From the IMG/VR virus record IMGVR_UViG_3300008113_000098, positions 1 to 49,062 of that record: DNA of 49,062 bases; one strand, written 5' to 3'. Of this stretch, positions 1 to 48,332 are shown piece by piece (the stretch's first letter is position 1; every line of letters starts with the position of its first letter). The notes beneath the pieces are model-generated. The model ran no database searches. It worked only from the letters and a program-made list of their open reading frames with translations, and had not been told where the DNA came from. Both the position numbers and the translations under genes were made by a program. Source of the DNA: a virus.

Positions 1-73
1 TAATACAACAACTACAACCCCTACTCCTACCCCTATACCTACTCCTACCTCCGCGCCTACCATACCCAACAAA
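1..73. other. Left-end pyrimidine-rich leader
   Basis: No gene is visible. The stretch is C/T/A-rich, with the 12-mer CCTACTCCTACC at 20-31 and again at 38-49. Positions 60-67 (CCATACCC) and 71-73 begin an inverted repeat whose partner is near the right end (48944-48967). Its reverse complement resembles the G/A-rich stretch at 48981-49003, so the window ends form an extended imperfect dyad if they are joined. Confidence 0.6.
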
Positions 74-123
74 CGCTTGGGAACCTAGGGAGTCCGTGGG
101 ATACCGTGGGAAACCATGGGAAC
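74..123 (+). repeat. Left array of five 10-bp iterons
   Basis: Five contiguous 10-bp units read CGCTTGGGAA, CCTAGGGAGT, CCGTGGGATA, CCGTGGGAAA and CCATGGGAAC, with consensus CCnTGGGAAA. The exact 10-bp period puts each unit on the same face of the helix, as expected for cooperative protein binding. A matching five-unit array lies in inverted orientation at 48904-48953. This may be a replication-origin or packaging-site element. The binding protein is unknown. Confidence 0.8.
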
Positions 124-156
124 CATTTTTATATTCTAGCTATGCAGGTTAGGCAC

Positions 157-185
157 TTGACTTCTGCAATGAAGTTAGCTAGCTT
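157..185 (+). promoter_or_regulatory. Possible weak sigma70-type promoter
   Basis: TTGACT lies at 157-162, and a poor -10 match, TAGCTT, follows 17 bp later at 180-185. The segment TTGACTTCT is identical to the start of the better promoter at 6463. The position just upstream of the first small genes is sensible, but the -10 is weak. Confidence 0.35.
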
Positions 186-224
186 CCCCTAAGTAGTACC
201 AAACCAAAAACAAAGGAGAAAGAG

Positions 225-407
225 ATGATTATTCTCTATCTCGAGAAGTGGGATATGCTTTCCATCTATTACTATAGAGGAAGGGATCTCTTCTGCATCG
301 ACATTTTCGATGAAGAAAATTTCAGCGATTCGATGTCAGCTCTCCGCGATTTCAAGGATGTTCGTAAGTTCTATTCTGACGAAATCATCCACGACGACAA
401 CCTCTAA
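225..407 (+). CDS. Small acidic protein, VRxF-IIHDD family, member 1
   Basis: This 60-residue protein has unknown function. The start is set by a strong Shine-Dalgarno site, AAAGGAGAAAGAG, directly before the ATG. The protein opens with MII, has an IYYY core strand near residues 14-17, and ends with VRKFYSDEIIHDD. The proteins at 5817 and 6026 share this layout: an MII start, an aromatic LxIYYY strand, then VRxF and an I(I)H(E/D)D end. It is therefore one of at least three paralogues. No transmembrane segment or enzyme motif is seen. It is acidic, soluble and probably made early. Confidence 0.8.
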   Translation: MIILYLEKWDMLSIYYYRGRDLFCIDIFDEENFSDSMSALRDFKDVRKFYSDEIIHDDNL

Positions 408-420
408 AAAGGAGAAAGAG

Positions 421-660
421 ATGATTACGATGATTGTAACTTCGGAACCCAGCTGGGAACTCAACATCTACGAGTACGATGAAGAGGGAAAAGTTGTATC
501 TCACTTTTGGTCAAACATCATTGACAAGTGGTTGACCACAACTTTCAATCCTGACTTCTTTCCGAATCTTGAGTATGTTCTTTCCTATAAGGAAAGATTG
601 GCCAAGCTCGGAGGAGAAGAGAAGTATACCATTCTTCACGTTGAATACGAGGAGGAATAA
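421..660 (+). CDS. Small acidic early protein
   Basis: This 79-residue protein has no recognised function. The ATG at 421 is chosen because it follows AAAAGGAGAAAGAG, nearly identical to the ribosome site of the gene at 225. An upstream extension to 310 would overlap that gene. The sequence has MITMIV at the start, an ELNIYEYDEEGK strand-turn like the IYYY strand of the 225 family, and an acidic end (HVEYEEE). It may be a diverged relative of the VRxF-IIHDD family, but the HDD end is absent. A strong inverted repeat and tRNA-Leu follow. Confidence 0.75.
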   Translation: MITMIVTSEPSWELNIYEYDEEGKVVSHFWSNIIDKWLTTTFNPDFFPNLEYVLSYKERLAKLGGEEKYTILHVEYEEE

Positions 661-670
661 ATCCTCATCA

Positions 671-700
671 TTATATACACCATTTTGAGGGTGTATATAA
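671..700 (+). terminator. Strong inverted repeat before tRNA-Leu
   Basis: TTATATACACC (671-681) pairs perfectly with GGTGTATATAA (690-700) across an 8-nt loop. Only a short TTT follows, so intrinsic termination would be weak. The hairpin ends 3 nt before the tRNA acceptor stem, so a role in processing the tRNA 5' end is equally likely. Confidence 0.55.
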
Positions 701-703
701 TTT

Positions 704-785
704 ACTCCCTTGGCGAAAGCGGTAGACGCGAGAGACTTAAAATCTCTTACCGTAAGGTGTGCGGGTTCGAGTCCCGCAGGGAGTA
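704..785 (+). tRNA. tRNA-Leu (anticodon UAA)
   Basis: This is a complete class II tRNA. The acceptor stem is ACTCCCT/AGGGAGT, and the D-arm contains GCGGTAGACGC. The anticodon stem AGAGA/TCTCT carries loop CTTAAAA, giving UAA, which reads UUA Leu codons. A long variable arm (ACC-GTAA-GGT) is present, and the T-arm is GCGGG-TTCGAGT-CCCGC. The discriminator is A785. CCA is not encoded (TTTT follows), so the end must be added by a nucleotidyltransferase. A nucleotidyltransferase-like gene lies next to it. Confidence 0.96.
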
Positions 786-858
786 TTTTCCTATAACCTC
801 TGTCTTCTATAATCCTTAGAAGATATGTTATATCAACTCTCTATAAAGAGAGGTAGTT

Positions 859-1266
859 ATGTTGGCTGCCGAAACTCAGCTTCTTAAGAATTTCCAGATT
901 CTCGACAACATTGAATATCCCGTGTATTCCACGGGATCAAGATTCTTCGGTTATTTCAGGGATTGCAGTGACTGGGATTTTATGGTGGATGAGCGGGCGA
1001 AAGATGAACTTCTTTCTCTCGGTTACAGCCTCATCGAAGATCCAGTCTATGCCGACGGCACAACAACTCTTGTTCTAGGGAAAGATAATTTCCACGTCCA
1101 GTTGTACAAAGAAGATGATCTGAAGATTATGATTGCAATAAGGAATGCAATCAGATCTAACACTTACATGTATCATCTCTACCTGAAGTTGGATAAGAAG
1201 GACAGGAAGATGTTTTGGAAAGGATTGCTTTCCCTGGAAAAAAACCTTTTCAACGTCGAAAAGTAG
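859..1266 (+). CDS. Nucleotidyltransferase-fold protein
   Basis: This 135-residue protein contains STGSRFFGYFRDCSDWDF around residues 24-41. It matches the pol-beta-type nucleotidyltransferase signature of a GS followed by D-h-D, where the two Asp residues bind metal. The expected third carboxylate strand appears as FHVQLYKE, with Gln where Asp is usual, so activity is uncertain. The C-terminal half (NAIRSNTYMYHLYLKL) is helical. An upstream hairpin, CTCTCTATAAAGAGAG, may partly hide the GAGAGG ribosome site. The gene sits between tRNA-Leu and a tRNA-like element, which suggests, but does not prove, a role on RNA ends. Other members of this fold modify proteins or small molecules. Confidence 0.75.
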   Translation: MLAAETQLLKNFQILDNIEYPVYSTGSRFFGYFRDCSDWDFMVDERAKDELLSLGYSLIEDPVYADGTTTLVLGKDNFHVQLYKEDDLKIMIAIRNAIRSNTYMYHLYLKLDKKDRKMFWKGLLSLEKNLFNVEK

Positions 1267-1269
1267 TGT

Positions 1270-1318
1270 AACGGTTAGAAGTTGGGTAGTATGGGAGGTT
1301 CGATTCCTCCCGCCGTTT
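1270..1318 (+). ncRNA. Compact tRNA-like element without anticodon arm
   Basis: AACGGT (1270-1275) pairs with GCCGTT (1312-1317). A perfect T-arm, GGGAGG-TTCGATT-CCTCCC, lies at 1293-1311. The two stacked stems total 12 bp, as in a normal acceptor/T stack. Between them is TAGAAGTTGGGTAGTAT, which resembles a D-loop including the GTTGG motif. There is no room for an anticodon arm. It begins 3 nt after the nucleotidyltransferase stop codon. It could be a minimal tRNA mimic, a processing signal, or the decayed remnant of a tRNA. Confidence 0.55.
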
Positions 1319-1324
1319 TAACTT

Positions 1325-1404
1325 TCTTAAGTCTGTTAGTATTAACGCCTCCGCTCCGCTCCGGCGAACTGCGCCCCTTCGGGAAAAGAGGAGGAGACTT
1401 AAGA
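1325..1404 (+). ncRNA. Structured GC-rich RNA hairpin
   Basis: TCTTAAGTCT (1325-1334) pairs perfectly with AGACTTAAGA (1395-1404). Inside are GC-rich sub-hairpins: CGCC/GGCG (1346-1349 with 1363-1366) and CCC-CTTC-GGG near 1375-1383. CCTCC and GGAGG segments could also pair. The GC-rich core differs from the flanking AT-rich DNA. It contains GGCGAACTGCGC, a motif related to the GC-rich element at 38533-38591. Function is unknown. Confidence 0.55.
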
Positions 1405-1476
1405 GATAGAAGTGTAGTATAAAGAATATATTTCACATCGGAAGTATATTCTATGTATCATCTTAAGGAGGATTTT

Positions 1477-1761
1477 ATGTTTGCAATCACGAGAGGAAAG
1501 GGATTTCATATTACCTTTCCGAACGGTTATGCCCTTTCTGTTCAGTTTGGTCCTTATAATTACTGTGAACACTACGATGTTCCTGACCCCTATGCTCCCT
1601 TGAATGTTTCCAAGTGGAGTTCTAAGGATGCCGAGATCGCAGTTATCAATCCCACGGGAGATCTTATTTCTCTTTCAGAAGGTGATTCATACTCAACCGT
1701 GAAGGGTTACCAGGGATCAGGTGAGTTCGCTTCGTTGGTTGCATACGTCTCCAATCTTTAA
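1477..1761 (+). CDS. Conserved-type phage hypothetical protein
   Basis: This 94-residue protein starts MFAITRGKGFHITFPNG and continues with YALSVQFGPYNYCEHYD. The K-G-F-H-I-T-F-x-N-G ... SVQFGxxNYC pattern recalls a small protein family I associate with phages. No function is known to me. The ATG at 1477 is preferred over 1453 because AAGGAGG sits 6 bp upstream of it. The protein is probably all-beta, with strands around the FHITF and SVQFG segments. It lies directly after the GC-rich hairpin RNA. Confidence 0.75.
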   Translation: MFAITRGKGFHITFPNGYALSVQFGPYNYCEHYDVPDPYAPLNVSKWSSKDAEIAVINPTGDLISLSEGDSYSTVKGYQGSGEFASLVAYVSNL

Positions 1762-1940
1762 CTTCTACTCTCATGCCAAACCTCATTCTTTCACGTTCAG
1801 CAAACAATAACATTCTAACTATCTCTGTGATGGACGGTGTGGCCGTCTGTCAAGAGGTATCGCCAGAGGTTACGCTAGCTGCCCTGCTGTCGTCATCCCC
1901 TCGCCGTCCCTTTCCCTTCTATTCTCTTGACCTCTGCCCC
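1762..1940. other. Gap with no convincing gene
   Basis: I see no supported gene here. A 61-codon frame from 1773 has no ribosome site and low-complexity codons. TTGACC (1927-1932) precedes the much better promoter that starts at 1941. Confidence 0.5.
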
Positions 1941-1969
1941 TTGACAAATCCGACCTAACGTGTTATACT
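1941..1969 (+). promoter_or_regulatory. Near-perfect sigma70-type promoter
   Basis: TTGACA (1941-1946), an exactly 17-bp spacer and TATACT (1964-1969) form the best consensus promoter in the window. Transcription should start near 1976. That places the long hairpin, the tRNA-like fold and then the gene at 2215 on one transcript. Confidence 0.88.
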
Positions 1970-1987
1970 AGGATCATGCGGGACCAC

Positions 1988-2028
1988 AACAAACATAAAA
2001 GTTTCTCACACATTCTTTTATGTTTGTT
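1988..2028 (+). ncRNA. 14-bp perfect hairpin at transcript 5' end
   Basis: AACAAACATAAAAG (1988-2001) pairs perfectly with CTTTTATGTTTGTT (2015-2028) over a 13-nt loop. It begins about 12 nt after the predicted start of the 1941 promoter. It could protect the 5' end or set off the adjoining tRNA-like fold. Confidence 0.7.
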
Positions 2029-2030
2029 CT

Positions 2031-2120
2031 ATCCCACGATAGGTTCCATAAGTTTGATGCGAAGTTTTTCTCTCCGGTTATCTTCGCTCCTTATGTCTGG
2101 TTCGATTCCAGAGTGGGATT
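2031..2120 (+). ncRNA. tRNA-like RNA with one long arm in place of D and anticodon arms
   Basis: The 7-bp acceptor stem is ATCCCAC (2031-2037) with GTGGGAT (2113-2119). A perfect T-arm, TCTGG-TTCGATT-CCAGA (2096-2112), lies directly before the 3' strand, giving the normal 7+5 stack. Between them, GATAGGTTC has a GG that could play the D-loop role. CATAAG pairs with CTTATG, and the inner GCGAAG pairs with CTTCGC, making one long arm with a 17-nt loop. No standard anticodon arm can be drawn. The layout recalls the tRNA-like domain of tmRNA, but no message part is present. Transcription from the 1941 promoter is expected. Confidence 0.65.
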
Positions 2121-2122
2121 TT

Positions 2123-2180
2123 CCAATCATCTCAAATCGGAGATAATTGGACAAATACTATAACACTTCCGTTATAGTAT
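2123..2180 (+). promoter_or_regulatory. Two hairpins in the 5' leader of the gene at 2215
   Basis: CCAAT.ATCTC (2123-2133) pairs with GAGAT.ATTGG (2140-2150), with one mismatch. ATACTATAAC (2155-2164) pairs perfectly with GTTATAGTAT (2171-2180) over the loop ACTTCC. No U-run follows, so these look like mRNA-stabilising or processing hairpins rather than terminators. Confidence 0.55.
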
Positions 2181-2214
2181 ATTTATCAACTCACTTATTT
2201 GTGAGGCTAGTATT

Positions 2215-2745
2215 ATGTCGTTTACTCTTGTTCCAAGCGGTAAGGGCGAAACTGCGAAGGGCGAAGCGAAGTTTTTCGAGTTTGCTGCTTCGAGTGTGAA
2301 GTCTGAGGATTATCCTCATCTTCCTGCTACTTCCGTTGGTGCTGGTGAGTCGAAGCGCAACGTTCCTGTTGTAAAGATTTCTCCCGCGTCAATTCTCGTT
2401 CGTCAGTATCTTTCGGTGGAAGATGCGAAGTCTAGCGCAGTTTCGCGTGGCATTACCGAAGATCGTTTCAACGAAGTTGTTCTTACGCTCATCAACGATG
2501 CGGAGCGTAACGATACGGTGAAGATTGTTCGTGCGCGTGTTTCGGATGCGAAGATTCTTCCGCCCGATGTTCTTGATCTCGCGAAGGATGCGGCAGAGGA
2601 AGTGAATATCTTCGCTGCTACTGAGCGCGGTGCTCGTGAAGGTGCGAAGGTCAAGCTTGACAAGATTACGGAACTCGCGAAGGCAAATGCGAACGACCCG
2701 GAAGCGATGGCTGCTGCAATTATGGCTGCTCTCGGCTTGAAGTAA
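2215..2745 (+). CDS. Probable highly expressed early protein, unknown
   Basis: This 176-residue protein has no recognised domain. GTGAGG upstream acts as the ribosome site. The message carries the strongest promoter in the window (1941) and several stabilising leader hairpins. Codon use is more biased (GCG, GAA, AAG and CGT rich) than in its neighbours, as in strongly expressed genes. The C-terminal third is Ala/Glu/Lys-rich and likely helical (EREGAKVKLDK-like stretch, then AMAAAIMAALGLK). Host takeover or nucleic-acid binding are open guesses. A hairpin terminator-like element follows the stop codon. Confidence 0.75.
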   Translation: MSFTLVPSGKGETAKGEAKFFEFAASSVKSEDYPHLPATSVGAGESKRNVPVVKISPASILVRQYLSVEDAKSSAVSRGITEDRFNEVVLTLINDAERNDTVKIVRARVSDAKILPPDVLDLAKDAAEEVNIFAATERGAREGAKVKLDKITELAKANANDPEAMAAAIMAALGLK

Positions 2746-2762
2746 AACAAGCAGGTAATGAT

Positions 2763-2816
2763 AAAGGTAGGAATGATCTAAGACTCACGTTAGAGTTACA
2801 GATTATTCCTGCCTTT
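2763..2816 (+). terminator. Hairpin between the 2215 and 2855 genes
   Basis: AAAGGTAGGAAT (2763-2774) pairs with ATTCCTGCCTTT (2805-2816), including one wobble, and extends inward through ATCT/AGAT. The T-run after it is short (CTCATTTCC), so it may be a partial terminator or an mRNA 3'-end stabiliser for the strongly expressed gene at 2215. Confidence 0.55.
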
Positions 2817-2854
2817 CTCATTTCCTTCAACGAACCCAAACCGGAAATTGCAAC

Positions 2855-3574
2855 ATGGATTTAACATCCATTCCTCCCGAAGCACTAGAAAGCCTAGTAG
2901 ATAATCTATCTCGAACGGCTCATCATGTCCTTCAATCCTATGCGAACGATAACGAAGTAGCTACTAACTGGCGTACTATCGTTTCGTTTCGTTTAGCTGA
3001 TAACGATCTATTTCACATTCAACGCACCGGATGTGATCTGTCTGTGATCTTTGTTAACGGTTATGAGTTTGCCTCTCTCGACAAGACTAATCGTGCACAG
3101 ATTGCGAAGTTTCGTTTTGCTGCATTCAAGGCTATCAAGCTTGCCGCTACACTTTCCGAAGCAGGCAATGCATTGATTACCGGGGATCTTGCGTATGCTA
3201 TCAATCGTGAACGCAAGCGTTTGCGTCGTGAGGTTATTTCTCATGGCTACAATGCTCTCGATGATAGGTACTTTACAATTGGTGGGACTCTGACTCTTAG
3301 TGATAAGTTGTCAGGCAGAACTCTTTCTGCTCCCATCAATTCAATCATTCCTCTGGAGTCTCAGCTTAGTTCTCTTAAGCATGCACTGTCTCTTATCATG
3401 CTTCAAGATTCAGAGACGGAAGAGATCATTGATCTCCTGGAAACTAAGCGTTATCATTCTTCTATTGTTGTAGAAGAGCCTCCTACTTCCTATACTATCT
3501 CTAGTGTAGGCGAGTCAGTCTCCACGCATGTAGAGTATCGTAACACAACCAATCACAACAATCTTTCCAGCTGA
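2855..3574 (+). CDS. Hypothetical protein, 239 aa
   Basis: I cannot assign this protein to a family. The N-terminal half is likely mixed alpha/beta, with an aromatic strand LFHIQRTGCDLSVIFVNGYEF around residues 52-72. A helical Arg-rich stretch (INRERKRLRREV) sits near residue 115. The C-terminal 50 residues are Ser/Thr-rich and probably disordered. The ribosome site is weak (CCGGA). It lies directly upstream of a small ORF and the SNF2 helicase, so it may belong to the same replication or repair operon. Confidence 0.7.
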   Translation: MDLTSIPPEALESLVDNLSRTAHHVLQSYANDNEVATNWRTIVSFRLADNDLFHIQRTGCDLSVIFVNGYEFASLDKTNRAQIAKFRFAAFKAIKLAATLSEAGNALITGDLAYAINRERKRLRREVISHGYNALDDRYFTIGGTLTLSDKLSGRTLSAPINSIIPLESQLSSLKHALSLIMLQDSETEEIIDLLETKRYHSSIVVEEPPTSYTISSVGESVSTHVEYRNTTNHNNLSS

Positions 3575-3582
3575 GGCCAATC

Positions 3583-3867
3583 ATGATGTATCTTTCTTTC
3601 ATTACTGAACGTTTCTCTTCCGATCCTTTCTTTGTTTCTCCTATTTCTGGTTCTCATCTCCCGAGAGAGGTTAAGTTGTGGATCGCAGCGGAACTCTATC
3701 GTAATACTGACTGGTTCTATGATTATGCCGACGGCCCTTCTTATCTCATCGGCAAGCGTAGCGTAGAGATTTTCCAGCAGGCTATGAAGTTGATGTTTCC
3801 TGACGACGTAGATCGTAAGGAAGTTCTTTCCACTATCGACACGAAAGGAGTAGCTTATGGAATCTAA
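3583..3867 (+). CDS. Hypothetical protein, 94 aa
   Basis: This small protein of unknown role has CTGAGG ahead of two adjacent ATGs (3583 and 3586). Its stop codon lies inside the start region of the helicase gene (11-bp overlap), which points to coupled translation. It contains an aromatic central segment (LYRNTDWFYDYADGPSYL) and a helix (SVEIFQQAMKLMF). It may assist the helicase, but this rests only on coupling. Confidence 0.7.
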   Translation: MMYLSFITERFSSDPFFVSPISGSHLPREVKLWIAAELYRNTDWFYDYADGPSYLIGKRSVEIFQQAMKLMFPDDVDRKEVLSTIDTKGVAYGI

Positions 3868-5575
3868 CATCACTACTCCAACGGAAACTCCTCGTGTTAT
3901 TCACGTGGACATTCGCAAGCAATCCAACACGCGAGTAGTTGTTACACTGGCTAAGGATATTACATTTCCTTACAGTTCGTTCAACGATTACCGCCACAAT
4001 CCTTTCGGCAATGGATTCAACATTCCACTAGAAGAGTCTCCGAATCTTTACACTCTTCTAACCAACGATTACCGACACCTTAACTTCACTATCGACAAGC
4101 ATACGAGTGAATTTATTGAGTCGGTTCTTAACCGTGAGCGCCAGTCATATGACTACGCAGTTGCAAACGATGCACCAGAAGTTAATCATAAGTTGGGACC
4201 AGTTACTCTCCGTCCTTTCCAAGCTGCTGCATTTCGTTATCTCAACTTCAATCAAGATAACAAGATCCTCGCTCTCGACATGGGACTAGGAAAGACTGCG
4301 GTATCTCTTAAGTTTGTAGAAGAGAATAACTACCGCACAATCTTTCTTACAAAGGCTGCTCTCGTAGCTAATCTAGATCGAGAGATTCGCAAGCTCACTA
4401 CGCAACGTCCTGTTATTCTTGGCGGACGTGTGCCGGATGAGACTTGTATGCGCGCACTATTCACGAAAGATTTCCGTTACTTCATTCTTAACTATGAGGT
4501 AGTGGGAACAGAACTAATCACAGAGAAGGATGGTAAAGAGATTATCTCGCATCCGTGGGCAGAACTCTTCAACACTTTATCTTCTGCCGGCATGCTAGAT
4601 TGTATTGTAGCTGACGAAGCGCATTCATTTAAGAACATGAAGGCTAAGCGAACCAAGGCTATTCTTAAGATGAATGCACCTCGCAAGCTTCCGATGACTG
4701 GTACTCCACTAGTTAATCGTTTGCCAGAACTCTTTCCTCTTCTTCACTGGATTGCACCCGAATCATTTCCTTCCGAGCAATCCTTTCTCAACACGTACGA
4801 TAATGGAAGTGGAGCGCCACGCAATCCAAAGCAATTGCAGAAGGCCCTTCTTCCATATATGTTCCGTCGTGCGAAGCGAGATGTTCTCACTGATCTTCCA
4901 CCGATCAATCGTCTAACACATACTGTAACTCTTTCTCCTCTTCATGCAGAACGATACAAGGCTGCATTGGATGGAGTATATAAGACGATTGATGGTGGCG
5001 AGATGGACATCAGTAATACTCTTGTCCAGCTTAATCGTCTTCGTCAGATTGTTGCAGACGCAAAGGCAGATCATGCAGTAGAGTACATTCAGAACTTTCT
5101 CGAAGAAACTGATGAGAAAATTCTGGTCTTTTCTAACTTCACTATGCCTGTCCGTCAGATTGCTGCGGAGATTGGATGTGATGTTATCTTCGGTGATGTT
5201 GAGATGGCCCGCCGGATGAAAATGGTAGACAAGTTCACAACTGATCCAGATACTCGTGTTCTTTGTCTGACTATTCCAACTGGACAAGAAGGACTCAACA
5301 TTACTGCTGCATCTACAATCTTCTTTAACGATCTTGCTTGGACTCCTAAGGATCACACACAAGCGGAAGCGCGTGCGTACGGTCGGTTGAATGACGTACA
5401 CGGTGCAACCGCTGTATATTGTGAGATCGAAAAGACAGTAGATTCTTTCATGAATAGTCTGCTCCAGTATAAGACTAAGATCATCGAGTCTGCTGTAGAA
5501 GGAACTAAGGAGTATGCACAAGCTCAACAGTCCATCATGATGGAAGTTGTTAACTACCTCAAGACTAATAGGTAA
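3857..5575 (+). CDS. SNF2/DEAD-like ATP-dependent helicase
   Basis: This 572-residue superfamily 2 helicase has a full set of motifs. These are Q-like LRPFQAAAFRYL, motif I DMGLGKT (near residue 141), motif II DEAH, motif III TGTPL, a motif IV region KILVFSNF, motif V TGQEGLNI, and motif VI as EARAYGRLND, where the usual QxxxRxxR is degenerate. The spacing and TGTPLxNRLPEL sequence place it in the SNF2-like group. The first 100 residues form a phage-specific N-terminal region. It probably remodels DNA or protein-DNA complexes in replication or repair. The ribosome site AAAGGAG is strong. Confidence 0.92.
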   Translation: MESNITTPTETPRVIHVDIRKQSNTRVVVTLAKDITFPYSSFNDYRHNPFGNGFNIPLEESPNLYTLLTNDYRHLNFTIDKHTSEFIESVLNRERQSYDYAVANDAPEVNHKLGPVTLRPFQAAAFRYLNFNQDNKILALDMGLGKTAVSLKFVEENNYRTIFLTKAALVANLDREIRKLTTQRPVILGGRVPDETCMRALFTKDFRYFILNYEVVGTELITEKDGKEIISHPWAELFNTLSSAGMLDCIVADEAHSFKNMKAKRTKAILKMNAPRKLPMTGTPLVNRLPELFPLLHWIAPESFPSEQSFLNTYDNGSGAPRNPKQLQKALLPYMFRRAKRDVLTDLPPINRLTHTVTLSPLHAERYKAALDGVYKTIDGGEMDISNTLVQLNRLRQIVADAKADHAVEYIQNFLEETDEKILVFSNFTMPVRQIAAEIGCDVIFGDVEMARRMKMVDKFTTDPDTRVLCLTIPTGQEGLNITAASTIFFNDLAWTPKDHTQAEARAYGRLNDVHGATAVYCEIEKTVDSFMNSLLQYKTKIIESAVEGTKEYAQAQQSIMMEVVNYLKTNR

Positions 5576-12891: not shown

Positions 12892-12898
12892 AGAAGTT

Positions 12899-12969
12899 TG
12901 CCCTCTCGTCTAACGGCAAGACACTAGACTTTGGATCTAGGAATGATGGTTCGATTCCATCGAGGGTAA
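12899..12969 (+). tRNA. tRNA-Gln (anticodon UUG)
   Basis: This is a standard cloverleaf. The acceptor stem is TGCCCTC/GAGGGTA with one G-U pair, and the D-arm is GTC-TAACGGCAA-GAC. The anticodon stem CTAGA/TCTAG has loop CTTTGGA, giving UUG. The T-arm is GATGG-TTCGATT-CCATC, and the discriminator is A. CCA is not encoded. It would read CAA codons. Confidence 0.95.
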
Positions 12970-12990
12970 TTTCTCTAACAAGGAGTTTAT

Positions 12991-15629: not shown

Positions 15630-16075
15630 CCACCCCTCTAATTCCATTCTATACTTGTTCAGTTTGTTATAATAAGGATGCTTGCAGTAGCATTGGACGT
15701 TGTACACGAGATTTTTTAACTCCCTCATCCCTCAAAGAAGGAGTCAAGTTCGACTCAGATAAATTCTACCGTCCCGAACTAATCACTCCAGAATTTATCT
15801 TTGAGCTTTCGGGAGTTCTTGCTTATGGTGCAAAGAAGTACGAAGATAGAAACTGGGAAAAGGGAATGAAGTGGTCACGTCCTTTCGGTGCGCTCATGCG
15901 TCACTTATGGGCGTGGTGGCGAGGAGAAGATAAAGATCCCGAAACAGGATTCTCTCATCTGGCTCACGCTGCTTGTAATGTCATGTTTCTGTTAACATTC
16001 CAGTTACGTGGAAGCGGTACGGATGATAGGTTCTTTATCCTCACTTCACTACAAGAGAAGAAGAAAGATGAGTAA
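15626..16075 (+). CDS. dATP/dGTP diphosphohydrolase-like protein (DUF5664-type)
   Basis: In this 149-residue protein the core is KFYRPELITPEFIFELSGVL, AYGAKKYEDRNWEKGMKWSR, FGALMRHLWAWWRGEDKDPE and GFSHLAHAACNVMFLL, matching the phage dATP/dGTP diphosphohydrolase family. A Cys cluster in the first 30 residues (C-x2-C, then two more Cys) is extra and could bind zinc. Together with the MazG-like neighbour it would shape the dNTP pool ahead of the polymerase, whose ATG lies inside its last codons. No PurZ-like gene for modified adenine is present here. Confidence 0.82.
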   Translation: MTTPLIPFYTCSVCYNKDACSSIGRCTRDFLTPSSLKEGVKFDSDKFYRPELITPEFIFELSGVLAYGAKKYEDRNWEKGMKWSRPFGALMRHLWAWWRGEDKDPETGFSHLAHAACNVMFLLTFQLRGSGTDDRFFILTSLQEKKKDE

Positions 16076-17681
16076 CATTTCTTCTCGCAAGGTTTCTCAC
16101 ATTGGCCCACTAGACGCATCCATCTTTATTTTGGGTGATGCGCCAGGAGATGATGAGAACCTACAACAGATTCCCTTCGTAGGAAGGACAGGAGAATATC
16201 TTAATTATCTTCTCTCTTCCGTAGGAATTGACAGAGATTCCTGTCGTCTAGGTAATGTGGTCAACTATCAGCCACGTGGAAATGACTTCAAGCTTCTTCA
16301 CGGTTCTCCTCAACTTCAAGAAGGAAGAGTAGAACTTCTTACGTATCTCCGAGAACACACACCGAAGATCATTATTCCTATGGGAACTGAAGCTCTTCGT
16401 GCTTTAAGTTTGGGAGATAGTATTTGGAAGTGGCGAGGTAGTGTTCTTCGTTATGGTAGTTCTCTGGTTATTCCTACGCTTCATCCATCCGATGCCTTTC
16501 ACGATGGACAAGTTCCTCCTATTATCGAGTTCGATTTACGTCGAGCCAAGAGGGTATTAGAACATGGCTACAACACTCCTGTTCATTATTTTGATACGAA
16601 CCTTGAATTCTCTAGACTTGTCGACCTCCAATCTAAAGTTCGTGGGGCAAAATTTATCTCAGCTGACATCGAATCAATCAAAGGTACAACACATATACTC
16701 TGTATTGGATTCGCTACTTCAAAGTCAGATGCGTATTGCATCCGTAATGATTATCCTTTGGGTCAAGGCACTGATCCTGCTTTTCGTGCTGCTGTCCAAT
16801 CCATCCTGGATGCAGCAAATTCTATCACTTTTCATAACGGGCTCTTTGACACAGAGGTTCTGGATCTTAATGGTATTCATGTGGATCTAAAGAAGTATGA
16901 CTTCGATACCATGTATGCTCAACGTGTCATTGCTCCCGAACTTCCCATCGGACTAGACTTCTGTACTTCTATTTATACTGACGAACCTTACTACAAAGAT
17001 GAAGGCAAGGAAAACTCTACAAGATTTCGCGATACTCTTTGGGAATATAACTGCAAAGATTGTATTGTAACCTACGAGATTCGAGAGAAGCAGCAAGAGA
17101 TTTTCGATGCAGACGAACTGTTTAGAAATACATTTAAGTATCAGATGTCTCTCATTCCCGTCGCACGCCATATTAGTGGAAGTGGTATGCTTCCTGATAA
17201 CGAGCGGATCAATGAACTTAGAACGCATATCGAAAGCAAGCTAGAGAATTTCCGCACACTTCTTTATGGTATTAACGGAGCTTACTTCTTAACCTCCTCA
17301 CCAAAGCAAGTCATTGAATTCCTGCACAAGAAACTTGGCTTGCCGACGCGCAGCAACCGCGAAAATAAAGTCACAACAAATGAGGATGCGCTGGTATCTC
17401 TTGTTCACTATGCGCAAAAAGAAATGGATCTCCGAAAGACAGAGAAGTCAAAGCGCGAGTGGTTCTTCAAGCTCAGTGCTATCAAGCTTCTTCTCAAGGT
17501 TAGAGGCTACGAGAAACTACTTTCTTCTTATCTTAGCATTACTCCTTCTCCTGATGGCCGCCTGCGAAGTAGTTATAAAATTAGTGGAACGGAGACGGGA
17601 AGGTGGAGCGCGAGTAACTATGTGGATGGCAGCGGCTTTAACGCACAAACACTCCCACGAGAAGAGATCGAGGTAGAGTAA
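16068..17681 (+). CDS. DNA polymerase family A, fragment 1: UDG-like + 3'-5' exonuclease + thumb
   Basis: This 537-residue protein contains GDAPGDDE...IPFVGRTG at residues 23-42 and LHPSDAF, the motifs of a family 4-like uracil-DNA glycosylase domain. It lacks the usual four cluster Cys. A DnaQ-type exonuclease follows: ADIES near 195, HNGLFDTE near 255 and YNCKDCIV near 326. The thumb and first palm part end at ISGTETGRWSASN near 509 and NAQTLPRE. The chain stops before motif A, which lies in the gene at 17911. Start ATG 16068 overlaps the upstream stop. Fragments must assemble to make a working replicative enzyme. Confidence 0.9.
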   Translation: MSNISSRKVSHIGPLDASIFILGDAPGDDENLQQIPFVGRTGEYLNYLLSSVGIDRDSCRLGNVVNYQPRGNDFKLLHGSPQLQEGRVELLTYLREHTPKIIIPMGTEALRALSLGDSIWKWRGSVLRYGSSLVIPTLHPSDAFHDGQVPPIIEFDLRRAKRVLEHGYNTPVHYFDTNLEFSRLVDLQSKVRGAKFISADIESIKGTTHILCIGFATSKSDAYCIRNDYPLGQGTDPAFRAAVQSILDAANSITFHNGLFDTEVLDLNGIHVDLKKYDFDTMYAQRVIAPELPIGLDFCTSIYTDEPYYKDEGKENSTRFRDTLWEYNCKDCIVTYEIREKQQEIFDADELFRNTFKYQMSLIPVARHISGSGMLPDNERINELRTHIESKLENFRTLLYGINGAYFLTSSPKQVIEFLHKKLGLPTRSNRENKVTTNEDALVSLVHYAQKEMDLRKTEKSKREWFFKLSAIKLLLKVRGYEKLLSSYLSITPSPDGRLRSSYKISGTETGRWSASNYVDGSGFNAQTLPREEIEVE

Positions 17682-17914
17682 TGCAGACATCAGACATTCA
17701 CTTGCTTAAAGGCCATTTCAAAGTAAAGGAGTTTGATGATGGTTTTATCACCGTCTCTCAGCAACAGTACCTAGAGAATAGACAAATGCTCGGCTTCAAG
17801 GATTCTCACGAACTTTACGAATTTATAGATGAGCTTGCTAAAATTATTCCTCGACCGAAGAAAAGCGATCGCACTGATACTTACGTAGGTGAGAGATGGA
17901 AGTATGATCTATGA
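17681..17914 (+). CDS. Unknown ORF inserted between polymerase halves
   Basis: This 77-residue protein begins MQTSDIHLLKGHFKVKEFDD and has a C-terminal helix and a basic end (RPKKSDRTDTYVGERWKYDL). It starts by TAATG overlap with fragment 1 and ends by ATGA overlap with fragment 2, so all three are translationally coupled. It has no homing-nuclease motif and no intein or intron boundary sequence. It could help join the two polymerase subunits, or be a remnant of an insertion. Confidence 0.75.
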   Translation: MQTSDIHLLKGHFKVKEFDDGFITVSQQQYLENRQMLGFKDSHELYEFIDELAKIIPRPKKSDRTDTYVGERWKYDL

Positions 17915-18687
17915 GCAGAAAAATTCCCCTCCGTTCTATCATTAGAGCCCGCGATGGTTGTTCTCTAATCTCTGTAGACTTATCCGCCGCCGAGGCCTGG
18001 GTTGTTGCATATCTCGCAAGAGACTTAAATATGCAGCGAGAGCTTGCGAGTGGAGATCTTCACAAATATGCTGCATCAATTATCTTTCAAAAACCTACCA
18101 CAGAAATTACTAAGGAAGAGCGATATGTCGGGAAGAAAGGAAACCATTCACTTAACTATCGAACTTCAGCTGGAAAGCTCTGTGAGTCCATTAACAAAGA
18201 AGGCATTATTACGGTTTCTCTCCCTCAAACCAAAACATACTTCGAGCGTTGGCATAGCGCATTTAGCGTTCGAATGTGGTGGGCGGAAATTGATGATAAA
18301 CTTCGACGGGACCGAACACTCATCACTCCGTATAAGAGGAAGCGAATCTTCTTCGGACTCTGGAACGATGATCTACTTAAAGAAGCTACCGCATATGTTC
18401 CTCAGTCTACGGTAGCAGATCATATGAATGGTGCAGTCCAACCTGAACTTGGAATTGAAGGTGGACTTCTAACCATTTATCGAAACATCATTCTTCCCAG
18501 CAAAGAAGAAATTAGAATGATTCAGACGGCTCACGATTCGGTTGTTCTTGAATGCCCGCGACCGCTTATCTCTGAAATCTCAGAGCAGACTGTTTCTATC
18601 TTGAAGCGTCCGTTAGTGGTTGGCGGAGAAACCTTTACCATTCCGGTGGACTGTGACATCTATCCCGAACGATGGGGAGAAAAGTAA
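17911..18687 (+). CDS. DNA polymerase family A, fragment 2: palm and fingers
   Basis: This 258-residue protein begins with KIPLRSIIRARDGCSLISVD, the sequence expected right after the NLQ-P-R box that ends fragment 1. Motif A is DLSAAEA (D23, E28), motif B is R71-Y-V-G-K75-K-G-N-H79-S-L-N-Y83, and motif C is H208-D209-S210. The catalytic Asp residues and the fingers Lys are present, and the motif spacing matches E. coli Pol I (52 and 134 residues against 53 and 124). Position 762 of Pol I is His here instead of Phe, Tyr or Leu. Motif C has Ser in place of Glu. Confidence 0.9.
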   Translation: MSRKIPLRSIIRARDGCSLISVDLSAAEAWVVAYLARDLNMQRELASGDLHKYAASIIFQKPTTEITKEERYVGKKGNHSLNYRTSAGKLCESINKEGIITVSLPQTKTYFERWHSAFSVRMWWAEIDDKLRRDRTLITPYKRKRIFFGLWNDDLLKEATAYVPQSTVADHMNGAVQPELGIEGGLLTIYRNIILPSKEEIRMIQTAHDSVVLECPRPLISEISEQTVSILKRPLVVGGETFTIPVDCDIYPERWGEK

Positions 18688-34876: not shown

Positions 34877-35380
34877 TTACTCCTTCTTAGAAGGTGTTAG
34901 TGTAACTTCAAGTCCCTTAACATTTTCCACAGAAGAATCTGCGGTAACTTCATCGTATCCACCTTCATTCCGAATCGCAGCCATAAAGTCCTTATCAGCA
35001 CGCCGAGGATCAGCAGCACGAGCTGCCTTCTCTTCGGAGATTTTTTCAAGAACTTCATGCTTCCACTTCGGAATCGTATACAAACGTACATCCGCAATGC
35101 GAGGATTTCCTGCACCATCGGTATGTACAAATTTGCTCGAAGCTGCAAGTTCATCGTCAGGAATAAATCCCTTTGCAGTCAGTCGAGCGTGGGTAAGAGG
35201 ATCATCTTTGTGCCACTCATAGTGAATTCCCGGCGGAGCATCGGCTACTTGAAAGCGGTCAATAGTATGACTGCGATCAAGAACTTGAATCATACGCGAT
35301 GCGTAATCATCATACTCTTCACGCGAGGGAGGACGAACATTAGAGTCCGTCAAATTGATGTCGATCTTGCGCTCACTCAT
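34877..35380 (-). CDS. Hypothetical head-gene protein, 167 aa
   Basis: This acidic/basic helical protein lies between scaffold and decoration genes (EEYDDYASRMIQVLDRSHTI, IPKWKHEVLEKISEEKAARA). ATGA coupling to the scaffold-like gene suggests co-production. It could be a head-assembly accessory. No family is recognised. Confidence 0.62.
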   Translation of the reverse strand: MSERKIDINLTDSNVRPPSREEYDDYASRMIQVLDRSHTIDRFQVADAPPGIHYEWHKDDPLTHARLTAKGFIPDDELAASSKFVHTDGAGNPRIADVRLYTIPKWKHEVLEKISEEKAARAADPRRADKDFMAAIRNEGGYDEVTADSSVENVKGLEVTLTPSKKE

Positions 35381-36174
35381 TGGAAAGTAACCTCATCGGC
35401 TTCAAGGAACTTGAGGAAGTCTGCTTCTTGTCCTTCCTTATAACCAAGCTTGTTAGCCAAACGACGTTGCTGTTCAGTAAGCTTGATCTTTTCAGGAGCC
35501 TTTGTTCGAGGAGCGTTGTTAGGAACATTAGGAGGATTAGAAGAACGACGCACGGGAGGCTCGTTAGAGGGTGTGTTACTTGTAGCAGGAGCACCACTAA
35601 GAGCATAATTTCCAACAGCCATAATGGTTGCCATTCGAATATTAGCAGGAGTAGGATCAGCAGTACCTAGAATTTCCAAAACAGCTGGAGCAAGACCTTC
35701 CGCATATGCAGCTGCATTTGGATTGATAGCCGAAAGAACTTGAGGAAGTACACTATTTACAGTGCGAATACGTTGCTGATTCTTCTGTTCCTCAAGGAGA
35801 GGAGAAATCGTAGCAGAAAGCTTGTGATCGAGAAGACGTTCAAGAGCAGCAGACGGAGAGGTTTGAAAGTCTTCATCAGTAACAATTGGACGAGTTGGAG
35901 TATTCTGCTGAACCGAGCGAGAAACTCCTTCCATCTGCTGCTGAAGCTGCTGAAGCTGTTGCTGAAGAAGTTGATTCTGTCGTGTGGCGTTTTGGGCAAC
36001 CTGAGTAAGCATCCGAAGTTCTTCACTATCGGAAGAAGAATTATCTTCGGAATTAGGTTGAGAAGTATCGCCGCCTCCAAGATCAGAAGGATCTTGTGTA
36101 CCTTCTTGTGATTGGTTCGTGTTCGACAGATCGGTTGTGTCGTCCGTCTGCTGTTGAAAGTTCGGACCTGTCAT
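35377..36174 (-). CDS. Scaffolding-type protein
   Basis: This 265-residue protein has an acidic, Ser/Gln-rich disordered start (residues 1-50), then a Gln-rich coiled coil (QNQLLQQQLQQLQQQMEGV), a helical core, a Pro/Asn/Ser linker and a basic helix near the end (PEKIKLTEQQRRLANKLGYK). This order and the location between portal and capsid fit phage scaffolds, whose C-terminal basic helix contacts the capsid protein. Confidence 0.75.
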   Translation of the reverse strand: MTGPNFQQQTDDTTDLSNTNQSQEGTQDPSDLGGGDTSQPNSEDNSSSDSEELRMLTQVAQNATRQNQLLQQQLQQLQQQMEGVSRSVQQNTPTRPIVTDEDFQTSPSAALERLLDHKLSATISPLLEEQKNQQRIRTVNSVLPQVLSAINPNAAAYAEGLAPAVLEILGTADPTPANIRMATIMAVGNYALSGAPATSNTPSNEPPVRRSSNPPNVPNNAPRTKAPEKIKLTEQQRRLANKLGYKEGQEADFLKFLEADEVTFQ

Positions 36175-36388
36175 CTTTTAAAGCCTCTGCTAAGATAGTT
36201 AGAAGTCGCGTAACTGCTGAATAAGCACCTTGAGCTTTTCTTACCTCATCCCAATTGTCCAGAGAGGTTAGGGAGGTTAGGTAAGATGCTTGATGCGTTT
36301 GGAGCAAGGACAAGATTACTTTGGACTGAGGGAGCTGAAGGAGTTCCTTGAGTTGGGTTTCCTCCAACTTGGTTAGGGGTTTGGACAT
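36083..36388 (-). CDS. Small helical protein overlapping portal and scaffold genes
   Basis: This 101-residue frame bridges the gap between the portal stop (36246) and scaffold start (36174), overlapping both. The helical sequence TKLEETQLKELLQLPQSKVI, LQTHQASYLTSLTSLDNWDE, RLLTILAEALKDD resembles small helical proteins encoded after podovirus portals. No ribosome site is evident, so it may be read through coupling. The C-terminal 25 residues lie inside the scaffold frame and may not be meaningful. Confidence 0.58.
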   Translation of the reverse strand: MSKPLTKLEETQLKELLQLPQSKVILSLLQTHQASYLTSLTSLDNWDEVRKAQGAYSAVTRLLTILAEALKDDRSELSTADGRHNRSVEHEPITRRYTRSF

Positions 36389-38129
36389 TGCTAGGAACCA
36401 TGCTTGGGTTTATAAGGAATCGCTCAGGATTACGAATATCGAAGCTTTCCATGATATGCCGCATCGCAAGATTGGCACCCTCGAAGGCTTTCGTACTAAC
36501 CTGATTAAGCAGATCAGGATTTTGCATACCCTGTGCAAGAGTAATCAGATTGGTATAGTATTGCTGGAAAATACCAACCAGCTGTGTAGCATCCTGACGA
36601 TCCTTAAACTTGTTTTGATTCTGTCCCGCAAGGCGAATATCAACCAAGAGCTTCTTGCGGAAATAATCGAAAGGAGACTTGAGAAAAGTCTCAATCTCAT
36701 TTCCCTTGGGATTAAACATCAGACGGTCTACATCTGGGCCCCACTGAGCAAGAACTAAAAGACCGGAGTTAAGAGTCTCGTCACAAAGAGTGCGAATGTT
36801 CGAGTAAGAATAATCAAACTTTCGCGCGCTCTCTTGAACTCGGGCCATTTCAGATGTTGCTGTTCCAGGAGTACCAGCAGTAGGCATGCCTAAAGTAAGA
36901 TCATTCACACCACTTCTTTGCTGTGCAAAGATGATTACTTGATTCTCGTTGTTATAAGCAGAAGCCTTTACATCTCCCATCTCAAGAGTTTGGATGTCAT
37001 CCATCTCATCGACAAACCAAAACTTGCCAGGAAAGATAGGCTCATTCTCTTTGATGCTAGCATTGCGCTTGATTTTATACATTCGCATATTAGCAATCGT
37101 AGCATTATCGAGGCGCGTCCTGTGTTGTGCAGTTACCTCGTATTGAAACTGTTCATTTTGCTTTGCAAGTCCAATACCGTACCAGCGAAACTCTACAGGA
37201 AAGTAGACTGCTTTGTGATAAGGACGCCGAAGATCGGCATACCAGTTATTCCAAATGCCTACAATCTCCTGCATTTCCCGCTGATACAGAATAAAGAACT
37301 CTTCGTATCGACCTTCAACGATTTCCCAACAAGTTGAGATAGCGTAGAACTCGATCTCAAGAGGCCAACCGGAATCAGTCAGTGTAGTCTCTTTGACTGA
37401 ATCATTATACTTTGATGCATCATCTGTGTCTCGTGTACCTGGCGTAAACATATGTTCAAGTTTCTCATATGTACCTTCCATAAAGAATCCATCTTCTTCT
37501 CGCTGACGGATTTCATTAGGAGTAAGCCAGAACACCTTACCACACCAACGAGCATCTTGAATATCGGTACAATCGAAAGGCATCAAAAAGTTAGCAACAG
37601 GAACCGAATTAAATTCAGGGCCATTCTTGATGACCACTTCGAATTCCTCTTCTTTTCCGTCTGTGCTAACCCGCAATCCCTTCTTAGAAGAATAACAGTA
37701 ATTTACTTCTGTTACTCCCGTACCGAGCTTTTCGACCTCAAGAATCGCAGGTTCAATCTTTCTCTTGAACTCTCCACCCACCATGAACTCATCGTGAAGA
37801 TAACGCTCAAGCTCTGGTTCGAGTTCAGATTGTTCTGGATTCTTAATCTTCGCTGCAATATTTTGATCGTGCGCGAAGGCTGTTTGCATTGTGCGTGAAT
37901 GCACAGCTTCAAGTGCAATCGCAGTCAGTGGAATAATAATAGTGGATGCGCCCACAAAGGGGAAGGTAGCCACCTCTGTAGAAGGCTCTGCGAGGTAATC
38001 TGACTGATAGCGAATGAACTTATCAATAAGTTCTCCACGCTCAGCCAGATGATTTGTTAACTCTGTTTCTAACCACGAGACAATATCTCGATGTTGATCT
38101 TCTGTGAGACTTACGTGGCGGTTATACAT
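36246..38129 (-). CDS. Portal protein
   Basis: This 627-residue protein has the podovirus portal layout: a helical clip and wing start (LTEDQHRDIVSWLETELTNH), FVGASTIIIPLTAIALEAVH, a stem region FYAISTCWEIVEGRYEEFFI, RSGVNDLTLGMPTAGTPGTA near the tunnel loop and a disordered Pro/Asn-rich end (TPNQVGGNPTQGTPSAPSVQ). It forms the ring through which DNA is packed and released. The AAGGAAACTAG ribosome site is clear. The GIY-YIG gene overlaps its start by 19 bp. Confidence 0.9.
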   Translation of the reverse strand: MYNRHVSLTEDQHRDIVSWLETELTNHLAERGELIDKFIRYQSDYLAEPSTEVATFPFVGASTIIIPLTAIALEAVHSRTMQTAFAHDQNIAAKIKNPEQSELEPELERYLHDEFMVGGEFKRKIEPAILEVEKLGTGVTEVNYCYSSKKGLRVSTDGKEEEFEVVIKNGPEFNSVPVANFLMPFDCTDIQDARWCGKVFWLTPNEIRQREEDGFFMEGTYEKLEHMFTPGTRDTDDASKYNDSVKETTLTDSGWPLEIEFYAISTCWEIVEGRYEEFFILYQREMQEIVGIWNNWYADLRRPYHKAVYFPVEFRWYGIGLAKQNEQFQYEVTAQHRTRLDNATIANMRMYKIKRNASIKENEPIFPGKFWFVDEMDDIQTLEMGDVKASAYNNENQVIIFAQQRSGVNDLTLGMPTAGTPGTATSEMARVQESARKFDYSYSNIRTLCDETLNSGLLVLAQWGPDVDRLMFNPKGNEIETFLKSPFDYFRKKLLVDIRLAGQNQNKFKDRQDATQLVGIFQQYYTNLITLAQGMQNPDLLNQVSTKAFEGANLAMRHIMESFDIRNPERFLINPSMVPSNVQTPNQVGGNPTQGTPSAPSVQSNLVLAPNASSILPNLPNLSGQLG

Positions 38130-38491
38130 CTAGTTTCCTTATGGTAGAGATCGTAAATGAACCTCGCATGCTCCGACATTTGATCGTATGTTCGCTCTGG
38201 TACACCTTGCACAAATCTTTCAAAATCTTCCTTTGTGCTCATAGATGTCCAAACAAAAGCCTTAGTCATTCGTTTTAATGCTCTCTCTAATTCCAATGCT
38301 CTCCAGTAAAATCCCACCGGGCGTATAAACTGATACCAAATTTTTCCCGAAAGTCGAGATCTCTTTATGTGATCCCGTAAACGGTTACCAGGATTTGATG
38401 TAATTCCGATATAATAATCAGTACCATTCGAAAGAACATACAAGTACCAACCATCAGCTTTCCACTTTGAATATAGCTTGTTGTTTTTCAT
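38111..38491 (-). CDS. GIY-YIG endonuclease (free-standing homing type)
   Basis: This 126-residue protein has WYLYVLSNGTDYYIGITSNP and NRLRDHIKRS, a GIY-YIG core with Y..YIG and the Arg of the N-R-L-R-D-H segment. ELERALKRMTKAF supplies the catalytic helix with Glu. It is only one domain long, with no DNA-binding extension seen. It lies directly upstream of the portal gene and is preceded by a GC-rich hairpin block, as expected for a mobile gene that landed in the late operon. Confidence 0.83.
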   Translation of the reverse strand: MKNNKLYSKWKADGWYLYVLSNGTDYYIGITSNPGNRLRDHIKRSRLSGKIWYQFIRPVGFYWRALELERALKRMTKAFVWTSMSTKEDFERFVQGVPERTYDQMSEHARFIYDLYHKETRCITAT

Positions 38492-38532
38492 GTTGGACTA
38501 CCATGATAGTGAAGGGTTGGAGGATGTTAAGC

Positions 38533-38567
38533 GCGGCCCAGCGGGCCGCGGCTATTCGCCTTCGGCG
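38533..38567. repeat. GC-rich hairpin block upstream of the GIY-YIG gene
   Basis: GCGGCCC (38533-38539) and GGGCCGC (38543-38549) form a perfect hairpin, and CGCC-TTC-GGCG follows at 38557-38567. The block is far richer in GC than its surroundings and is followed by AACTGCAACTGCGC. The GGCG..AACTGC..GC wording also occurs in the structured element at 1346-1380. It might be a mobile hairpin repeat, an mRNA-processing stem or a pausing site. Confidence 0.6.
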
Positions 38568-38609
38568 TGGAACTGCAACTGCGCTGGTACGAAGAATAAT
38601 GATATTAAG

Positions 38610-38846
38610 TTAATCCTGATCTACCGAATAAACTGCAATCTCTCCATTTGGATCGTCCAATCGCATTCCTTCATAAAGAGACTTGATTAATGCTTGAGCG
38701 AGATCGCCCCGCAAGAAGAATACGGCTCCCGTAACCTGAGGAGTTCCCACATTATTAGTAATCTCGATGCGCATTTCGTTATTAATGAGGCGGGTGGGAA
38801 TCTCCAGAATGTCTACACGATTCCCTAGTTTGCGTGTGACTTTCAT
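38610..38846 (-). CDS. Hypothetical protein, 78 aa
   Basis: This beta-rich protein (NRVDILEIPTRLINNEMRIE, TGAVFFLRGDLAQALIKSL) of unknown role is ATGA-coupled to the next upstream gene. It precedes the GC-rich hairpin and GIY-YIG gene. No family is recognised. Confidence 0.6.
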   Translation of the reverse strand: MKVTRKLGNRVDILEIPTRLINNEMRIEITNNVGTPQVTGAVFFLRGDLAQALIKSLYEGMRLDDPNGEIAVYSVDQD

Positions 38847-39061
38847 GATTGGTTATTTGGAGGGCCGAAGAGAAGCTCAAACACTGGATAAAGATCTCGC
38901 ACAACGAATGTCTTGCGGAAGATCCACCAGCGAAGAGTAGTAAGCCTTCGTTCGGTATTCATGAAATACCATACCCAGAAGGACTTAGAGATGATCTCTC
39001 GAATAACACTCTCAAGAGATTCTTGTTCAGCTTCCTTTAGATCTAGTTCTCTTAGGATCAT
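38843..39061 (-). CDS. Hypothetical protein, 72 aa
   Basis: This small basic, aromatic protein (SFWVWYFMNTERRLTTLRWW) has a helical start (LDLKEAEQESLESVIREIIS). It overlaps the large polyvalent gene by 35 bp and the next gene by 4 bp. A membrane-edge role is possible from the Trp/Phe cluster, but no real transmembrane helix is visible. Confidence 0.58.
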   Translation of the reverse strand: MILRELDLKEAEQESLESVIREIISKSFWVWYFMNTERRLTTLRWWIFRKTFVVRDLYPVFELLFGPPNNQS

Positions 39062-41347: not shown

Positions 41348-41504
41348 TAAGAATAGAAGTGGTGAGAGGGGAACCAGAAGAAGCTACAGCATTTACACAG
41401 GGATCACGAACATCAGCAGGAAGAAGAGAAAGAACGATACCTCCAAAACCAAGAGTACCACCGACAGCAGTAGTAGCACGAGTTTGAAGAAAGTTACGAG
41501 TCAT
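41271..41504 (-). CDS. Holin-like small membrane protein
   Basis: This 77-residue protein has two hydrophobic helices (AVGGTLGFGGIVLSLLPA and TTSILIVAGLLLTVVGPSLA) joined by a short loop, and a charged end (KNKSSEDQGK), the plan of class II holins. It is ATGA-coupled to TerL. The endolysin lies 9 kb away in the same late strand, so this is a candidate holin but not proven. Confidence 0.65.
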   Translation of the reverse strand: MTRNFLQTRATTAVGGTLGFGGIVLSLLPADVRDPCVNAVASSGSPLTTSILIVAGLLLTVVGPSLAKNKSSEDQGK

Positions 41505-48259: not shown

Positions 48260-48332
48260 CGACACGCGCAATTCTCCCGTGCGCTGCATATTGTGGCCGG
48301 GAGCACCATACCAAAAAACCGGAGAAAGAACG

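Follow-up and report, generated by a model that had tools for sequence, protein, structure and literature searches.

A tRNA-shaped RNA with a single long arm in a phage leader and its armless counterparts behind phage genes: candidate cut marks for RNase P

Introduction

What does an RNA with the acceptor stem and T-arm of a tRNA, and with no anticodon arm, do in front of a phage gene? The question is raised by positions 2031 to 2119 (plus strand) of a 49,062-nucleotide viral stretch, IMG/VR record IMGVR_UViG_3300008113_000098, the whole of which we call the window. An earlier note, made from the letters alone, had placed a tRNA-like RNA at this locus with correct coordinates and had offered three roles, namely, a decoy for tRNA enzymes, a maker of the 3' end of a leader transcript, or a tmRNA-like relic.

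Results

We looked into the fold of the element, all parts of which lie on the plus strand. The acceptor stem (ATCCCAC, 2031 to 2037, with GTGGGAT, 2113 to 2119) is paired at 7 of 7 positions, and the T-arm (2096 to 2112) consists of a T-stem paired at 5 of 5 positions (TCTGG, 2096 to 2100, with CCAGA, 2108 to 2112) and the T-loop TTCGATT (2101 to 2107). The T-stem adjoins the 3' acceptor strand directly (spacer of 0). On the 5' side, a D-loop-like linker, GATAGGTTC (2038 to 2046), contains GG and has no D-stem; it is followed by one interrupted arm (2047 to 2095) composed of an outer helix (CATAAG/CTTATG, 2047 to 2052 and 2090 to 2095), an inner helix (GCGAAG/CTTCGC, 2059 to 2064 and 2082 to 2087), and a 17-nt loop, TTTTTCTCTCCGGTTAT (2065 to 2081). 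The RNAfold minimum (-27.6 kcal/mol) is exactly this acceptor/T stack plus the single long arm, with neither a D-stem nor an anticodon loop, as the earlier note had read it in its perfect 7-bp acceptor, its 5-bp T-arm with a TTCGATT loop, and its one long arm without an anticodon arm. The folding energy has a z score of -3.2, and 0 of 200 shuffles were as low.

The 7-bp acceptor, 5-bp T-stem, and TTCRANY T-loop of the tRNA family (RF00005) are thus all present, and the cloverleaf with a D-arm and a 7-nt anticodon loop is absent. Position 2120 is equivalent to the discriminator and is followed by UUU, CCA not being encoded; the phage's own tRNA-Leu and tRNA-Gln likewise have no encoded CCA. Neither ARAGORN nor Rfam made any call on the element, tRNA or otherwise.

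We then compared the element among phages. It was found upstream of the same gene, encoding a 176-aa protein, in three IMG/VR phages (L001, L002, and L031/L161), whose versions of this protein are 84, 55, and 68% identical to that of the window. These three, plus two fragments with a 100% identical terminase, are the only relatives of the window phage found in IMG/VR, and GenBank phages gave no DNA match and no match to proteins neighboring the terminase. In the alignment of the four phages, which was trimmed by hand to equal length at the cost of the insertions, a single bulge, and some letters in loops, 99.0% of the cells are paired and 14 of the 24 pairs are changed on both sides, a result matched by 0 of 500 shuffles; structures slid along the same alignment were only 41 to 46% paired. 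Compensatory changes occur in every helix in the three relatives, so that the outcome named in the earlier note as a refutation, stems that do not covary, is the opposite of what was found. The probe sequence that retrieved L031 specified the arm loop and a portion of the T-arm and nothing else, so the search did not select for pairing in its acceptor or long arm. A first covariance model, from a MAFFT alignment missing the outer arm, was applied solely to search four records. The features kept in all four phages include the GG of the linker and, as the longest invariant stretch, TCTCCGGTT in the arm loop. Judged from these sequences, the element is genuine and conserved; its description as tRNA-like, single-armed, and yet no tRNA is upheld by its fold, by the silence of ARAGORN and Rfam, and by covariation.

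The closest known plan is that of the tRNA-like domain of tmRNA, in which, beside the acceptor and T-arm, the D-loop has no stem and a single long helix replaces the anticodon arm. Unlike tmRNA, however, the element has no tag reading frame, no encoded CCA, and no ARAGORN tmRNA call, and it measures about 90 nt. An identity as tmRNA or tRNA was rejected on the silence of ARAGORN and Rfam; for tmRNA, moreover, the D-loop-like linker is separated from the T-arm by only ∼50 nt. The suggested tmRNA-like relic is not supported, given the same absence of a tag frame and a tmRNA call, and helices that are perfect and covary speak against decay.

We next consider the surroundings of the element. A sigma70-type promoter, TTGACA-17-TATACT (1941 to 1969, plus strand; 11 of 12 matches), is the top match within the 4 kb scanned, to which extent the earlier claim of the best promoter in front is borne out, and the same arrangement is present in L001, L002, and L161. 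Downstream of it, the 14-bp perfect hairpin of that note (hairpin 1, plus strand) lies at 1988 to 2028, ending 2 nt before the element. Counterparts of hairpin 1 with 11 to 19 bp and a different sequence stand at the same place in all three relatives; the promoter and the directly upstream hairpin thus keep their form while changing in sequence. The element lies 72 nt behind a stop codon, with the promoter in between. A small conserved protein (59 to 63 aa in the four phages) is encoded at 1737 to 1960, and its 3' end overlaps the promoter.

On the 3' side (plus strand throughout), the predicted folds are hairpin 2 (2123 to 2150), hairpin 3 (ATACTATAAC-ACTTCC-GTTATAGTAT, 2155 to 2180), and a small hairpin, CUCAC/GUGAG (2190 to 2206), that holds the Shine-Dalgarno (SD) motif GAGG and is also found in L002 and L161. 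The gene of the 176-aa protein follows (2215 to 2745); this protein has no Pfam or PHROG match, and its predicted structure has a pLDDT of 46. Hairpin 2 contains AATCGGAGA (2135 to 2143), which could form 9 bp, including one G-U, with the arm loop. The complementarity is kept in 4 of 4 phages, with AAACCGGA in L161 giving 8 Watson-Crick pairs in a shifted register, and a contact in cis between the arm loop and hairpin 2 is plausible.

These observations bear on a reading in which the element belongs to a structured 5' untranslated region controlling the 176-aa gene, with TCTCCGGTT pairing with AATCGGAGA and the docking of a tRNA-binding factor acting as the switch. The invariance of the arm loop speaks for it, as do the complementarity to hairpin 2, kept although the spacing grows to ∼300 nt, and the long ordered leader made of hairpin 1, hairpin 3, and the SD hairpin. 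The 9-mer complementary to the arm loop also recurs at other genes, where it forms the SD region (window 48317 to 48325; G001 12177; L031/G003, minus strand, 6302 and 5996), and pairing with the arm loop in cis or in trans is possible at these few early genes. However, near-matches to the complement number 18 in the whole window versus 16.5 expected by chance; a trans-acting anti-SD role is no more than suggestive and was set aside; with only four genomes, the complementarity could be inherited; and the armless copies described below are left unexplained. We regard leader regulation as possible and rather doubtful overall, and as a serious alternative for the focal copy because of its nearby 5' hairpin, its U at position 74, and its promoter-proximal place.

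A part of the picture that the earlier note had missed is an armless mini element (termed mini) in the same window and the wider class, spread over unrelated phages, to which it belongs. The window copy (1270 to 1317, plus strand) reads AACGGT-17 nt with GG-GGGAGG-TTCGATT-CCTCCC-GCCGTT and starts 3 nt after the stop of the open reading frame (ORF) at 859 to 1266. Further copies were found in the relatives (L001 at 3727, L002 at 3879, and L161 at 6317 and 6612); the plan in this clade is six acceptor pairs, 11 to 17 nt with GG, and six T-stem pairs, i.e., a stack of 11 to 12 bp, with TTCGATT or TTCGAAT as the T-loop. True tRNAs occupy the same early stretch as the minis in this clade. ARAGORN calls tRNA-Leu(UAA) at 703 to 786, in the early gene stretch, and tRNA-Gln(UUG) at 12898 to 12970, 7 nt behind a stop codon (both on the plus strand). 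Elsewhere in the window, DNA polymerase is encoded in two consecutive ORFs (16008 to 17681 and 17911 to 18687) that correspond to adjacent parts of phrog_17 (442 to 988 and 995 to 1233).

To survey the class, we used a strict descriptor (12 pairs, a linker of 7 to 20 nt, and a TTCRANY T-loop), a looser acceptor-arm-T descriptor having proved useless in tRNA arrays. On 120 viral contigs chosen with a short probe, the strict descriptor found 42 elements in 32 contigs, and six permuted loops found 0. As TGG and GGTTCGATTCC were prescribed by the probe for a single copy in each contig, the frequencies of GG and of the T-loop are inflated in these contigs, and as the descriptor demands 12 pairs, covariation of those pairs is no evidence. 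Among these genomes, G005, G006, and G007 also contain five, three, and four copies, respectively, that the probe did not fix. In total, the strict descriptor gave 67 minis at 49 loci, nearly all viral; among bacterial genomes, 40 probe matches included two perfect minis of standard form (L338 at 2400 and L348 at 5471), that of L338, a bacterial bin, standing among phage-type replication genes. Over TTCGATT loops, the longest possible stack has a second mode at 12 to 13 bp (23 and 25 cases), with only 3 cases at 14 bp, and over permuted loops the stack reached at most 10 bp. Rfam gave nothing at the gathering score and nothing up to an E value of 1 on four mini-bearing loci; the family RAGATH-36 was rejected, having matched the T-arm only (E = 2.5). 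T7, phiL7, HTVC010P, and SIO1 contain no armless copies; weak matches were one in T7, atypical, and two or three in P-SSP7, near its end and elsewhere. Acinetobacter phage ZZ1 was rejected as a carrier; a single intergenic gap beside a tRNA cluster (L322, 2924 to 3035) contains a pair of TTCGATT T-arms and no clean mini.

The position of the minis is far from random. The start lies between -8 and +14 nt from a stop codon in 44 of the 67 cases, versus 9.9% of random positions; the armless form is on the coding strand, typically 3 to 14 nt behind the stop and before the next ribosome-binding site, and often occurs many times per genome. In an alignment of five minis with a common linker, four pairs are changed on both sides, and four of the five stand 10 nt behind a gene of 407 to 432 codons, which in L250 is the major capsid gene (PF05065). 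Among 55 copies, 54 helices are distinct. A derivation from decaying tRNA genes or attachment-site fragments would agree with a linker, AGTTGGGTAG, similar to the tRNA D-loop, and the 3' halves of tRNAs, T-arm plus acceptor, do occur at phage attachment sites. Decay is nonetheless extremely improbable given that the acceptor retains its two strands and shows compensatory changes, that nearly every helix is different, and that a genome holds many copies.

The 3' flank, which never entered the selection, is also informative. Position 74 is C in 43 of 55 copies and never G, U75 is found in 38 of 55, and A76 is found in 29 of 55; the usual sequence after a mini is NCUA or ACG. The similarity of N-C-U-A to N-C-C-A, together with the location directly behind stops, that of the major capsid gene included, would suit a protection of mRNA 3' ends, in which the minihelix would remain attached to the upstream message, perhaps extended by CCA, and would block exonucleases, much like the tRNA-like termini found on plant virus RNAs. 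We consider this unlikely, as window positions 1 to 4000 contain no intrinsic terminator (GC-rich hairpin with a T-run) and a cut by RNase P at the 5' side would strip the element from the upstream message.

We then examined named phages of Mycobacterium smegmatis mc2 155, a standard laboratory strain. Indlulamithi, which was reached via a short-query search, Fowlmouth, MrMiyagi, Cuke, and Send513 contain 12 to 14 unannotated minis each, mostly 5 to 12 nt behind stops; in the latter four the distance is mostly 7 to 9 nt, and the counts include a few weak elements, with 0 or 1 for permuted loops. Neither Rfam nor ARAGORN calls any of these minis. In Indlulamithi, the coding strand carries all 13 elements, within the interval from 35,034 to 42,330. 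Among genes 40 to 57, every one of the 12 gaps that span 85 nt or more holds one mini and overlapping genes hold 0; one further mini is located where the annotated start of gene 53 is probably wrong, and the wide gaps after 43,046 and 43,438 have none. Some of the elements are single-arm minis with a linker of 33 to 35 nt, in which one hairpin arm stands beside the T-arm, the same plan as that of the focal element (Fowlmouth 36867 and 41033, MrMiyagi 37251 and 41417, Cuke 37984, Indlulamithi 38972, and Send513 43642). The arm is changed on both sides between Fowlmouth (TGATGCAA/TTGCGTCA) and Cuke (TAGTGCAA/TTGCACTA).

Discussion

The class combines an acceptor/T stack of 11 to 13 bp, a canonical T-loop, and a short GG linker in the place of the D-loop, with no D-stem and no anticodon arm. 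Minis have dropped the features needed for translation and kept those that RNase P recognizes. Model substrates made of acceptor, T-stem, and T-loop are cut by RNase P, with their 3' end paired through L15 (PMC11143913), and RNase P measures from the elbow, the D-loop appearing dispensable (PMC4919913). The best explanation, which we hold with moderate confidence, is that the elements are cis-acting tRNA mimics that serve as cut marks for host RNase P, and perhaps RNase Z, in polycistronic phage mRNA. The architecture is demonstrated by the sequences, and from it we infer cleavage. A mini would present RNase P with the features that this enzyme measures, namely, the elbow, an acceptor/T-stem stack of ruler length, and, for most lineages, a C74 to pair with L15; host RNase P would cut at the 5' side, RNase Z or exonucleases would perhaps trim the 3' side, and the polycistronic transcript would be parted between genes. 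The location of minis behind stops and of true tRNAs in the same stretch fits such punctuation, and the cut, itself putative, may matter for expression.

The focal copy has the ∼12-bp stack and the T-loop; against its cleavage by RNase P, for which a 3' RCC paired with L15 is preferred, its clade has U at position 74 and not the C of 43 of 55 copies elsewhere. Nor does it stand directly behind a stop codon. Hairpin 1, so close upstream, could hinder RNase P, and with so short a linker a true contact of D-loop and T-loop may be out of reach. Under the cut-mark reading, the long arm would be an add-on in a promoter-proximal leader, the loop of which may pair with hairpin 2 and tune the 176-aa gene. 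Of the roles first proposed, that of a 3'-end maker comes closest, in that processing by tRNA enzymes is retained, with cleavage as its predicted part. Decoy, stabilizer, and protein-binding roles would use the same fold as punctuation does. Phages counter tRNA-directed defenses, and a mimic that retains elbow and acceptor might divert tRNA-binding host factors or tRNA-attacking defense or toxin nucleases. We nevertheless find the decoy very unlikely, because a missing anticodon loop leaves anticodon nucleases without a target and because a decoy gives no reason for the repeated placement a fixed few nucleotides behind stops or for a dozen different copies per operon.

Among known systems, the working principle of the minis seems to resemble that of mitochondrial tRNA punctuation and of plant-mitochondrial t-elements, in which tRNA-processing enzymes read tRNAs, or folds resembling them, where genes meet in polycistronic transcripts. 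Sense-strand folds at gene borders are a property of the class, and the focal copy shares it only as a leader element. Those systems, however, belong to organelles, and their cleavage is proven, whereas that of the phage elements, which have no D-stem or anticodon arm, is predicted. The RNase P model substrates AT1 and pMini follow the same minimal plan and are efficiently cut in vitro (PMC11143913), but they are man-made and join the acceptor directly to the T-stem, whereas phage minis keep a GG linker. The C4 antisense RNA of phages P1 and P7 and Escherichia coli operon mRNAs are cut by RNase P (Hartmann 1995 and Li and Altman 2003, as cited in PMC11143913) and so are phage or intergenic substrates of the kind proposed here; they are, however, single cases without a recurring T-loop minihelix, whereas minis form a repeated family. 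Searches of the open PMC literature gave no phage precedent for punctuation by mini-tRNAs, and the family, which is widespread in phages, is apparently undescribed.

In a broader proposal, to which we give equal chances of being right or wrong, many unrelated tailed phages would use dozens of distinct mini tRNA mimics, set just behind stops, as dedicated punctuation, from which RNase P would produce single-gene messages, the armed versions adding regulation. If true, phages would have reinvented tRNA punctuation of the mitochondrial type with a signal pared to what RNase P measures, RNase P would be a general processing enzyme of phage mRNA, and minis would be natural minimal RNase P substrates. 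It would also account for the unannotated gaps of 85 to 100 nt in mycobacteriophage operons and correct wrong gene starts, examples being the annotated starts of gene 53 in Indlulamithi and gene 47 in Fowlmouth, each located within a mini or beside one. Overlaps between minis and annotated small genes or gene starts occur in L375 (663 to 711; Indlulamithi 40963) and L376 (Fowlmouth 34980, 35845, 39438, and 41715), so that several mycobacteriophage gene starts are probably misannotated. Finally, tall tRNA-like folds were seen in other phages, on the minus strand of L110 near 864 (12193 in the reverse complement) and on that of L191 at 4954 (G006 44954); with a 9-bp arm or a 96-nt insert, they are perhaps further armed variants.
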